From NCBI GenBank assembly GCA_015067635.1, contig SVMA01000003.1, positions 59,892-123,891 on the forward strand: 64,000 nucleotides of DNA, read 5' to 3'. Under the pieces are notes generated by a model. It searched no databases. It saw only the letters and a list, made by a program, of their open reading frames with translations, and was not told the origin of the DNA. The translations under genes and the position numbers were made by a program. Source of the stretch: Oscillospiraceae bacterium (lineage in GTDB: Bacteria > Bacillota > Clostridia > Oscillospirales > Oscillospiraceae). Below are positions 51,152-63,720 of the stretch, piece after piece; position 1 is the first letter of the stretch; each line of letters opens with the position of its first letter.

Positions 51152-51421
51152 GATCGCACACCCACATTTGAACCTGCTGTGTATCCGGTATCAGCGTAGC
51201 CAGCTCAGAAACGGCAACCTCGCGGCACACGGAACAATCCGCTTAATGCTGCTTGGTTCCCCACCTGACATGGTTCACGGGATTCCGTTGCGCAAGACCG
51301 GTTCTTCAACACCGCTTGCCCCGTCCGGACGATACACAAACAAGCCCGGGTGTGGGAATTCATCCCTGCTGTAGCGGATTGCAGGTAACAGGGCACCGCT
51401 ATCTCCCCGATTAGTGCGACC
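51152..51421 (-). ncRNA. ffs: Bacterial large-type signal recognition particle RNA
   Basis: Minus strand has Alu-type GGGGAGATAGCGGTGCCCTGTTACCTGCAATCCGC and domain IV CCATGTCAGGTGGGGAACCAAGCAGCATTAAGCGG; terminal helix GGTCGCAC/GTGCGATC sets the ends; upstream of dnaX, a common Firmicute location. Confidence 0.92.
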
Positions 51422-56166: not shown

Positions 56167-56737
56167 TTTCAGCACCGCCTTTATTATCATTGGTTTTTAT
56201 AATTGCTTTAATGGCACGCCAGCCATACTTTGCGATCAGACTTAACAGTCTCCACAGGGTTATCGTGATATCTGCCCGAAAATATACCTTAGTATCCTCG
56301 GCTTCAAAATCACAGCCCACCTGAATATTCCGTTTCTTTATGGTAAATAACTGCTCCAGCGGCGACATAAGCAATCCGACTGCCACCCAGGCCTGTCCGT
56401 AATGAACTGCCGCATCGTAAGGGCTGTCTCCTGCCGCTGTCACTTGAAGCTCCAACCGTTTTACGCGGATTTTTCGCCGGAGCTCTCCGAAAAATTCCAG
56501 TGCTATTTTGAATATAGACAACAGCGTCTTTAAGCTGCCGCCTTTTTTGATGGCCGCGTCTCCGATTTTCGAAACCAGCTGCTTATCCTTATCATCGTCC
56601 TCATCAAGAACCTTGAAGGACGCAAAAGAGGCTTCTGTTTTGAAACCGGCTTTGGAGTATCTCAGCCTGACCTTCAGTGGAATAAATCCCAGTGAAAATA
56701 TCAACGCCAAGATGCCCAGAGCAATCCACCAGCCCAT
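56159..56737 (-). CDS. DUF2953-like membrane protein
   Basis: N-terminal TM; neighbour of ytfJ and scpB; C-terminal amphipathic region. Confidence 0.7.
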   Translation of the reverse strand: MGWWIALGILALIFSLGFIPLKVRLRYSKAGFKTEASFASFKVLDEDDDKDKQLVSKIGDAAIKKGGSLKTLLSIFKIALEFFGELRRKIRVKRLELQVTAAGDSPYDAAVHYGQAWVAVGLLMSPLEQLFTIKKRNIQVGCDFEAEDTKVYFRADITITLWRLLSLIAKYGWRAIKAIIKTNDNKGGAENE

Positions 56738-57318
56738 CAGACTGCCCCCTCTTCCACCGGCTCCTGAATTTCTGTTTGCTCCACAACTTCAACAGGTTCT
56801 CCGAAATTCACCTTCTCAATGGAAGGTAATTCTTCCAGTGAGGATATGCCAAAGGTGCGTAGAAAATCCGGTGTGGTTTGATACTGAATGGGACGTCCCG
56901 GCACATTCAGCCGTCCGGCCTCTTCAATCAATTTCTTGTTGAGCAGTGCCGAAACGGAATAAGAGCTATCCACACCGCGGATCTGCTCGATCATTGCCTT
57001 TGTCGCCGGCTGGTAATACGCAACAATGGTCAAGGTCTCCAACTGGGAAGCAGACAGTCTGGGCGGCTTTCTGGTCTCCAACGCCTTGGTTACATATTCC
57101 GCCATTTCACCGGAGGAAACCATCTGATAGCCGTTTTCCAACTTCAAAATCCGAATACCCTGACGGTCAAAAGCAAGGGCATCCGCCAATGCATCTGCCG
57201 CGGCAACCACATCCTTTATGTCGATTTCCAGCGTTTCTGCCAATCGTTTGACTTCTATCCGTTCACCGGCCGCAAAGAGGATCGCCTCAATGGCACGCTG
57301 CACTTCATTCAGTTCCAT
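56737..57318 (-). CDS. scpB: Segregation and condensation protein B
   Basis: VQRAIEAILFAAGERIEVKRLAETLEI...TLTIVAYYQPATKAMIEQIRGVDSSYSVSALL. Confidence 0.95.
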   Translation of the reverse strand: MELNEVQRAIEAILFAAGERIEVKRLAETLEIDIKDVVAAADALADALAFDRQGIRILKLENGYQMVSSGEMAEYVTKALETRKPPRLSASQLETLTIVAYYQPATKAMIEQIRGVDSSYSVSALLNKKLIEEAGRLNVPGRPIQYQTTPDFLRTFGISSLEELPSIEKVNFGEPVEVVEQTEIQEPVEEGAV

Positions 57319-60474: not shown

Positions 60475-60618
60475 ACTACCCCTCAATGTAATTTTTGTTT
60501 CTAAATTACTGCTTTCACGACAATGTGCAGTCTATATAAAGCAGAAAGACACATTGCATTTAATATATCACAGCAACCAGAAATTTGCAAGGTTTTCACC
60601 CGCATTCATACTGTGTGG

Positions 60619-60685
60619 CAATATTATATTCGCTACCAAAACTGCCCAAAGAGCGATATCCCTCGCCAAAGGCGAATTACATTGA
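60619..60685. repeat. Decayed copy of the GTGATATT/AATATCAC hairpin array
   Basis: Aligns with 63361-63460 (ATTATATTCGC..., ACTGCCC, GATATC, CTCGCCAAAGGCGAAT) with about two units missing. Confidence 0.65.
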
Positions 60686-60716
60686 AAAAACCTCGTTCCG
60701 AAGAACGAGGTTTTTC
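60686..60716. terminator. Intrinsic terminator
   Basis: AAAAACCTCGTTC-CGAA-GAACGAGGTTTTT. Confidence 0.8.
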
Positions 60717-62198: not shown

Positions 62199-63227
62199 TT
62201 ATTTTTGTGATTTTTTCAATATATCTTTTATGTGTTTTGACAAATTTTCAAAATAATATTCAAAGCCCTCATCGTTTGGATGCAACCTTAAATCGGCAAA
62301 TAAATCTTCATTTTGCGGAACAAATTCAAAACCTTGAATAACCGAAATGTTGCTAAATGCAGCTGTTTGTTTTTGAATAATCTCCCCCGCACTCTTAAAA
62401 TCTCCAAATGGTCTGCTTTCGTTCATATCCTTGCGCCATATAGGAGTGATTACATAAATTTTAGCATTGGGGTAATTATTACTTAAATTGCAAAGAAAAT
62501 CTTTACAATTGTGCGTTAACTCTTCCTTTGAGCGCTTGCTCCAATCGTTTGTACCATATGCTACAGTAATATAATCCGGTTCAAAATCTTCTTTTGTTGC
62601 TGCAAGCGCAGGAAAGAATACTTCACCGCCGATGGCTTTGTTATACTCCCCTGCATTCAGCATATCGGCAAGCTTTGTAATATACTTGTTGCTGGGATAT
62701 AAAGCATCATAACCATGGGTAATCGAATCACCAAAGCATAACAATTTTTTGTTTGGTTTGACGGGTTTAATGAATGAATCATCATCAATTACAAACTCTT
62801 TTAATGTCGCCTTTACTGACCAAGGAAAATATACACAAACTTCTTTTTCGCCTATTCCAAGATCAAATTCTTTAGAAAACTCTCCGAGAGGAAAATTAAG
62901 CGTTGTATAATTCTGAGGAATATCTATATCAGAAAAATTGTCCAACGTATCTATCTTCACACCGTTAACAAACACATCAAATGCGAAATAAGATCTGCTG
63001 CTTCCGCCAGTGATTTCCGTCCTTAAAAACAATGTTTGACTATTTGTATGAAAACAAATTTTTATCCCTGATGTAGCAAATGTTTTTGTGTAAAAATCAT
63101 TGCTACGATTCTTATAGAGCTCCTCTTGCTGTTTTGTAAAACGATAAAAATGAATACCGTTATCAATTTCTTCAATCCTAACCGCACCTGTGGTTATATC
63201 TCTGATTTGTGATAAATTTAAATTCAT
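62199..63227 (-). CDS. SGNH/GDSL hydrolase with N-terminal beta-sandwich (CE2-like esterase)
   Basis: KLLCFGDSITHGYDAL, YGTNDWSKRS, DLRLHPNDEGF catalytic blocks. Confidence 0.82.
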   Translation of the reverse strand: MNLNLSQIRDITTGAVRIEEIDNGIHFYRFTKQQEELYKNRSNDFYTKTFATSGIKICFHTNSQTLFLRTEITGGSSRSYFAFDVFVNGVKIDTLDNFSDIDIPQNYTTLNFPLGEFSKEFDLGIGEKEVCVYFPWSVKATLKEFVIDDDSFIKPVKPNKKLLCFGDSITHGYDALYPSNKYITKLADMLNAGEYNKAIGGEVFFPALAATKEDFEPDYITVAYGTNDWSKRSKEELTHNCKDFLCNLSNNYPNAKIYVITPIWRKDMNESRPFGDFKSAGEIIQKQTAAFSNISVIQGFEFVPQNEDLFADLRLHPNDEGFEYYFENLSKHIKDILKKSQK

Positions 63228-63286
63228 ATATTCCCCATCTCCTTAGGTGTATTATAGCATAAAAGCGGTGGAGGGGCAAGATATTA

Positions 63287-63458
63287 GTGATATTCTGTGC
63301 TTCGCAAAGAGTGATATTATGCCTTACGGCATAGTGATATTTTTGCCGTTGGCAAAAGTGATATTATATTCGCCTCTTAACTGCCCGAAGGGCAATATCA
63401 CTCGGCGTTAGCCGAATATCACTGCGTAGCAATATCACTCGCCGAAGGCGAATATAAC
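63287..63458. repeat. Nested array of GTGATATT and AATATCAC units with intervening mini-hairpins
   Basis: GTGATATT at 63287, 63311, 63334, 63358; AATATCAC at 63394, 63415, 63431, degenerate AATATAAC at 63451. Confidence 0.85.
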
Positions 63459-63460
63459 TA

Positions 63461-63493
63461 AAAAACTCCTTGAGAAATCTCAAGGAGTTTTTT
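63461..63493. terminator. Intrinsic terminator adjoining the array
   Basis: AAAAACTCCTTGAG-AAAT-CTCAAGGAGTTTTT. Confidence 0.8.
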
Positions 63494-63495
63494 CT

Positions 63496-63720
63496 GGCGC
63501 CTCAAACAGGGCTCGAACCTTGTTTTGCTTGACTGCCGAGTTTTAAATTTATATTCGGCTTCGTGTGGTCGACACTTGCGGTACCCGAAAGTTGCTTACC
63601 TCTTGGGGCGAGAGCAACTTTCGACCGCTACGCCTTTCCGCCCTTCTCTGCTTCTCACACCGTGAGCGTTCGGGCGGAAACTACCAACTGAGCCCGCTCA
63701 GTCGGTAAACCAAGGCGGCT
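63496..63720 (-). ncRNA. Candidate structured RNA / degenerate tRNA-like element
   Basis: Minus strand carries tRNA-like GGCTCAGTTGGTAG and AGGTTCGAGCCCTGTTTGAGGCGCCA separated by strong inverted repeats; terminator follows. Confidence 0.35.

Follow-up and report, generated by a model that had tools for sequence, protein, structure and literature searches.

A two-armed array of linkers and mini-hairpins in an Oscillospiraceae genome as a probable non-autonomous copy of an IVP/S23p-based mobile element

Introduction

How the intervening sequences (IVSs) of bacterial rRNA move, and what the S23/IVP protein does, has been an open question since about 1990 (PMC4990558). The classical 23S IVSs of Coxiella and Leptospira encode an IVP of the family PF05635, have inverted ends and are inserted in a hairpin; in the Coxiella rRNA IVS, heptameric repeats precede the S23p ORF (PMC4990558). 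The elements related to the array described here likewise encode a PF05635 IVP, have inverted ends and are inserted in hairpins, and the window (the whole 64,000-nt stretch of DNA analyzed) carries inverted arrays of ~7-nt repeats, with a linker that matches a subclade of IVP. However, the array targets transcription terminators rather than helix 45 of the 23S rRNA, its spacers are mini-hairpins, and the window copy has no IVP ORF.

Several other systems share features with this array. Gut-1 (Rfam RF01706), which was described from human-gut metagenomes as a candidate ncRNA (PMC2864571), has sequence units in common with it, namely GUGAAAU plus a hairpin. Gut-1 is, however, a single arm with three hairpins, filed as a human-gut ncRNA, whereas the element is a two-armed palindrome with about nine linkers, is also found in ruminant-gut genomes and is tied to IVP genes. 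The heptameric repeats of Xanthomonas and Nostoc (GGGAATC, GGGGA(C/T)T) are over-represented, with 70-75 inverted pairs per Xanthomonas genome, and were reported without explanation; that report discusses G-quadruplexes and makes no mention of S23 or four-helix proteins (PMC4692102). The 7-nt period is the same, and inverted heptads also flank the IVP genes of Nostoc plasmids. REP/REPIN sequences are, like the array, short, intergenic, non-autonomous palindromic hairpins, but the foot of the array is GTGATAT rather than GTAG-type, its stems are variable, and it has two arms of about five units and a different partner protein. The Avd protein of DGRs resembles PF05635 (PMC10053308), and the DGR target hairpin has a conserved structure and a variable stem (PMC3240598); the arrays, in contrast, had no associated reverse transcriptase in the genus genomes and the window genome that were searched. 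In the open-access literature, we found no work joining IVP to such arrays, to terminators, to mobility or to Gut-1.

Results

Anatomy of the array

The array occupies positions 63287-63459 of the window and is most naturally read on the minus strand, as a terminator, a left arm, a center and a right arm; the units below are given in that strand and order. The intrinsic terminator hairpin, HP0 (AAAAAACTCCTTGAGATTTCTCAAGGAGTTTTTT, 63460-63493), is a constant companion of the array, which begins directly after the T-run of HP0; the same hairpin also precedes the copies at loci L060 and L058. The left arm consists of five 7-nt linkers with four mini-hairpins between them, i.e., L1 GTTATAT (63452-63458), HP1 TCGCC-TTC-GGCGA (63439-63451), L2 GTGATAT (63432-63438), HP2 TGC-TAC-GCA (63423-63431), L3 GTGATAT (63416-63422), HP3 TCGGC-TAAC-GCCGA (63402-63415), L4 GTGATAT (63395-63401), HP4 TGCCC-TTC-GGGCA (63382-63394) and a fifth, degenerate linker GTTAAGA (63375-63381), assigned from the parse of 106 copies. 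The center, GGCGAATATA (63365-63374), is complementary to L1 together with the 5′ arm of HP1 (TATATTCGCC, 63447-63456). The right arm comprises four inverse linkers, all ATATCAC, with three hairpins between them: R1 (63358-63364), HP5 TTTTGCC-AAC-GGCAAAA (63341-63357), R2 (63334-63340), HP6 TATGCC-GTAA-GGCATA (63318-63333), R3 (63311-63317), HP7 TCTTTGC-GAA-GCACAGA with one mismatch (63294-63310) and R4, the last unit of the array (63287-63293). The array is naturally divided into units of one 7-nt linker and one hairpin with a closing T-A pair, and all stems of the window copy have such a closing pair.

Seen on the plus strand, the GTGATATT units start at 63287, 63311, 63334 and 63358, the inverse units lie on the other side, and the center TATATTCGCC (63365-63374) is perfectly complementary to the terminal GGCGAATATA (63447-63456). 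The first-pass annotation had drawn these units and mini-hairpins, including CTGTGC-TTC-GCAAAG with one mismatch, as well as the pairing between the center and the terminus, and all were found as drawn. The decayed copy that it placed at 60619-60685 is a true remnant (60617-60715, minus strand), which retains the terminator (CCTCGTTCTTCGGAACGAGG), the first hairpin, one linker, the last hairpin and the left-arm center.

The array sits between its terminator and a promoter-like sequence, TTGCCC-N17-TATAAT (63251-63279, minus strand), that leads into a GDSL-lipase gene (62199-63227). This gene is the neighbor of the window copy, which has no adjoining IVP gene, and the promoter-like sequence belongs to the host flank, with no clear sign that the element includes it. 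The idea that the element generally carries an outward promoter was considered and rejected, as promoters were found at the R end of 8 of 85 copies compared with 5.0 expected by shuffling, which is not significant. A stretch containing the promoter and a ribosome-binding site (GCTTTTATGCTATAATACACCTAAGG; window 63251-63279, L306, L060, L312 and L311) recurs before unrelated genes in the genus, and the promoter/SD that the copies in the window, at L060, at L306 and in C37 have in common is also found where there is no array. Directly upstream of the window terminator is a fragment resembling a tRNA 3′ end (GGTTCGAGCCCTGTTTGAGGCGCCA, 63495-63519, minus strand). A search for a complete tRNA at this fragment found none; the fragment is possibly an attachment-site remnant beside a hairpin-rich stretch of 200 nt. 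A bacterial large SRP RNA is located elsewhere in the window, at 51154-51419 on the minus strand.

Folding and stem covariation

The pattern AGTGATATT-N6..22-AGTGATATT occurs 6 times in the 1.55-Mb genome, and its reversed control does not occur. Both strands also fold far more strongly than shuffled sequences, with z-scores of -9.2 and -8.0 for the two strands as RNA, and of -10.6 as DNA. Based on the pattern counts and the folding z-scores, we conclude that the array is not a product of chance.

Covariation of the stems was measured on spacers that had been cut out by their flanking linkers only, and that were thus not chosen for pairing; as a control, the 3′ half of each spacer was taken from another spacer of the same length. 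In the left arm (71 distinct spacers), 0.96 of the inner positions pair, compared with 0.61 for the swapped 3′ halves; in the right arm (157 distinct spacers), these values are 0.94 and 0.41, respectively. That is, the stems covary among relatives, which supports the earlier proposal that structure rather than sequence is maintained. The complementarity between the center and L1 plus the 5′ arm of HP1 was counted in 88 of 106 copies, each time over at least 10 of 11 nt, and this pair changes jointly between subfamilies (TATATTCGCC/GGCGAATATA, and the AAATCC, CCGTTC and TTGTTCC types). Exactly five left-arm linkers, allowing the last to be degenerate, were counted in 86 of the 106 copies; the arms were parsed automatically, with a loss of some copies and especially of right arms, and copy counts do not represent independent events. 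In copies from several genomes (L106, L107, L119 and L350), a much longer stem (CTTTTGGAAATATCTCGCC...) takes the place of one mini-hairpin, as if hairpin modules had been exchanged.

Relation to Gut-1

The Rfam Gut-1 model matches the array at 63390-63460 on the minus strand, with 60.3 bits (cut-off 50). It also matches the opposite arm, at 63285-63369 on the plus strand, with 39 bits, and many relatives are matched as +/- pairs. Judged by these alignments, Gut-1 is one arm of a two-armed repeat element.

Dispersal and insertion target

The genome, which comprises 1.55 Mb in 37 contigs, contains two more full copies of the array (C37:~223-394 and C22:~56626-56797) in addition to the remnant at 60617-60715. 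Related arrays are present in many assemblies of gut Clostridia/Oscillospiraceae. Gut-1 matches were found in 40 of 201 genomes of the family, several of which have 20 or more, and their distribution is sporadic; the CGCC subtype is present in only 18 of 136 genus genomes, at up to eight places per genome. In viral contigs, matches to the bare pattern looked mostly like chance. These dispersed copies, together with the covariation of their stems, support the first-pass interpretation of the array as a non-autonomous palindromic element. The multibranched RNA 3′ end that it offered as an alternative is unlikely for the window copy, because the array is downstream of the terminator. Neither the terminator target nor the protein partner described below was within the scope of that annotation.

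Copies of the window type start where an intrinsic terminator ends, and this terminator often belongs to a tRNA or tmRNA gene. The figures on insertion within loops and on identity within a genome come mainly from the sister subfamilies S1-S3 rather than from the window subtype, and are as follows. In the S1 type, the element is inside the loop of a host terminator, and its left and right flanks together make up a single terminator, one arm each, e.g., AAAAAAGAGCGAAACG / CGTTTCGCTCTTTTTT at L141 and AAAACGGACCGA / TCGGTCCGTTTT at L052. The pairing scores of these arms in 25 S1 copies reach 20, compared with a mean of 7.4 and a maximum of 12 for mismatched pairs, and the right terminator arm is found at a near-constant distance. 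S2 and S3 copies are in terminator loops in 4 of 5 and 5 of 9 cases, respectively; in the S1-S3 types, the two flanks by themselves make an intact terminator. Another type, found in genome G061, likewise occupies terminator loops. The S1 copies of genome G333 are 79-97% identical to each other, whereas their flanks are 32-41% identical, i.e., unrelated. The S1 subfamily therefore has near-identical copies with unrelated flanks, as in MITE-like elements.

Some further observations were made around these insertions. At L335, L343, L349 and L375, the terminator palindrome ahead of the array reaches into the upstream tRNA gene: for four different tRNAs, an inverted copy of exactly the final 20 nt of the tRNA follows the terminator, which looks like foldback copying during insertion. 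A palindrome of this kind was also seen at L374 and L014. The genes between neighboring arrays (L283 and L284) were considered as transposase candidates, and were rejected as ordinary proteins by eye.

Linkage to IVP genes

In several window-type copies, the gene immediately following the array encodes PF05635, the 23S rRNA-intervening sequence protein (E=2.9e-28). Window-type arrays are directly upstream of an IVP gene at L101, L328, L331 and L335, and in other families at L484, L486, L490 and L495. Among the copies examined, the IVP gene is on the R side and the same strand in 4 of 85, on the opposite strand in none, and on the terminator side in 0 of 94.

IVP genes are present in 95 of the 136 genus genomes, and nearly all of the inspected loci are flanked by repeat arrays. 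An order-wide sample gave the same picture, with arrays at 29 of 30 genes (13 plain heptad arrays and 16 hairpin arrays, the latter judged by eye). At the plain-type loci, the best period is 7 nt. A strict threshold for period-7 identity was passed by 31 of 66 upstream and 32 of 66 downstream IVP flanks, counting all types, and by 0 of 52 control stretches. The upstream array of the plain loci is complementary to the downstream array, with a score of 22.0 compared with 7.0 for mismatched pairs. These arrays modally contain five 4-nt cores (23 of 39 upstream and 28 of 39 downstream) separated by 3-nt spacers, as in AATT GAC AATT GAC AATG GAC AATT GAC AATT. Inverted heptad arrays were also found at plasmid IVP genes of Nostoc, Planktothrix, Euhalothece, Treponema, Bernardetia, Chlorohelix and Monoglobus, and the IVP gene of a Bacteroidales contig has the same flanking arrays. 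On the plasmids of Bernardetia, Euhalothece and Planktothrix (L457, L460 and L462), the arrays beside IVP are expanded to 10 or more units.

Most hairpin-type IVP loci have both arms upstream of the gene, an arrangement that also fits an operator or autoregulation reading. At L127, L472 and L488, hairpin arms are found on both sides of the IVP gene; therefore, the plain and hairpin layouts are linked. At the level of whole genomes the correlation is moderate, as an IVP gene is present in 17 of 18 array-bearing genus genomes and in 78 of the 118 others (p=0.013). The only IVP gene found in the window genome, which is 86% complete, is at G000:C25:101949-102263 (L437); it belongs to another clade, is flanked by plain heptad arrays and carries one in-frame TGA. 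On account of this different clade and the in-frame TGA, the window copy may now be stranded.

Co-evolution of linker and protein

The IVPs associated with hairpin arrays form a single clade of 18 rows with a support of 100/98, in which the labels of four rows (L101, L328, L410 and L454) were assigned by eye. The linker types GTGATAT, GCTAAAT, TGAAAT, TGATGY and TGAAGY map onto the subclades of this tree with 6 changes, compared with a minimum of 5 and a shuffled mean of 24.2; row L410, which does not fit, probably represents another IVP of the plain type at that locus. All 11 IVPs with GTGATAT linkers are on one side of a branch with a support of 95/95, and the window linker belongs to this subclade. 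Quasipalindrome correction could contribute to the pairing of the stems, but not to this agreement between linker and protein.

The number five recurs in the protein. S23p of X. campestris is described as having crystallized as a homopentamer (Lin et al. 2006, as cited in PMC4990558), and the PDB entry 2rld has five chains. Given the pentameric homologues and the prevalence of five left-arm linkers, our working view is that one arm would serve one IVP pentamer.

Discussion

From the comparisons presented here, we consider it probable that the array in the window is a non-autonomous copy, devoid of an IVP gene, of a mobile element centered on the four-helix-bundle protein IVP/S23p (PF05635). 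We infer that this element moves, and that IVP both binds and mobilizes it, with one pentamer on each arm. The two inverted arms would be its working parts, with short recognition linkers lined up along each of them. Most IVP elements have plain heptad linkers on both sides of the IVP gene, with a mode of five 4-nt cores and spacers of 3 nt; in the clade of the window array, each spacer would have turned into a mini-hairpin that loops out and draws the linkers together. An IVP homopentamer would bind the linkers of one arm around its ring, on single-stranded or extruded DNA or on RNA, and two such rings would synapse the two arms. Insertion would be directed to transcription terminators, either beside the T-run or in the hairpin loop, and the IVP-less window copy would rely on an IVP of the GTGATAT subclade for movement in trans. 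Because IVP has, to our knowledge, no known catalytic activity, a host enzyme or a foreign polymerase would have to take part. Points against this interpretation are that the window copy lacks an IVP gene, that the single IVP found in its genome is of another clade and has an in-frame TGA, that both arms precede the gene at most hairpin-type IVP loci, that IVP and arrays correlate only moderately across genomes, and that the right arm of the window copy has four linkers, not five.

A structured non-coding RNA, Gut-1, made and used as RNA, would be consistent with the filing of RF01706 as an ncRNA candidate (PMC2864571), with the strong RNA folding and with the covariation of the stems. The Gut-1 model is, however, one arm that matches both strands of a single element, and many relatives as +/- pairs; the window copy follows a terminator, other copies interrupt terminator loops, more than 20 variable copies in a genome look like a repeat, and the fixed position upstream of IVP genes fits a protein-bound site. 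We therefore regard this explanation as quite improbable. An immobile site is unlikely as well, whether it serves IVP-type proteins as an operator or RNA leader or acts as an insulator that separates a terminator from a promoter, with quasipalindrome correction keeping the stems paired. The position of arrays directly upstream of the gene in most hairpin-type IVP loci and the location of the window array between a terminator and a promoter-like sequence would both be explained, but most copies are away from IVP genes (adjacent in 4 of 85), near-identical copies are found in unrelated terminators, and the enrichment of R-end promoters is not significant over all copies.

The first-pass annotation suggested a REP-associated transposase; in that case, a RAYT (REP-associated Y1 transposase) would move the array as an element of the REP/REPIN kind. 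Its units are indeed palindromic, intergenic hairpins with a constant foot, and Y1-family genes are found in 16 of 18 array-bearing genus genomes and in 63 of the 118 others (p=0.004), so that Y1 transposases track these genomes no less than IVP does. Y1/RAYT genes do exist in these genomes, but 0 of the 20 loci inspected are flanked by such arrays. Many of them are instead between GTAG-type palindromes, the classic RAYT substrate (e.g., GTAGGGGACGGGTTTCCCGTCCCCTAC and GTAGGGAACGACACGCAGGTCGTTCCCTAC), whereas the array has no GTAG foot and its stem sequences are not conserved; this mechanism thus appears very improbable. RAYT genes of the genus often adjoin GTAGGG... palindromes (L498, L500, L502, L505 and others), apparently a separate REP system. 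It is also unlikely that the array is the passenger of a retroelement, either a group IIC intron or a DGR-like reverse transcriptase, with IVP as an Avd-like cofactor. Group IIC introns insert after terminators. Since PF05635 resembles the DGR protein Avd (PMC10053308), and DGR targets need a hairpin or cruciform whose stem sequence may vary (PMC3240598), a reverse transcriptase is a natural candidate. However, RVT_1 is not associated with the arrays (9 of 18 compared with 50 of 118 genus genomes, p=0.61), and no RVT_1 reverse transcriptase was found in the window genome (86% complete).

The interpretation of the array as a copy of an IVP-based mobile element leads to a broader proposition, for which we see an even balance of probabilities: IVP elements would be a widespread, undescribed mobile class, in which a pentameric, Avd-like four-helix-bundle protein would recognize inverted arrays of about five short sites, either plain heptads or linkers spaced by hairpins, and would carry the element into nucleic-acid hairpins. 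The targets would be transcription terminators in the present case and 23S rRNA helices in the classical IVSs. If true, this proposition would jointly explain Gut-1, the intervening sequences of rRNA and a part of the bacterial heptameric repeats that have so far had no explanation.

In several phyla, the IVP protein is now tied to a cis-element of defined form, namely inverted arrays with about five short sites each; linker and IVP evolve together, and terminator hairpins provide the target rule. An Rfam family of ncRNAs can be reread as one arm of a repeat element, and a possible explanation is at hand for some heptameric repeats. The binding of IVP to the arrays, its stoichiometry and the mobility of the element thereby become directly testable.
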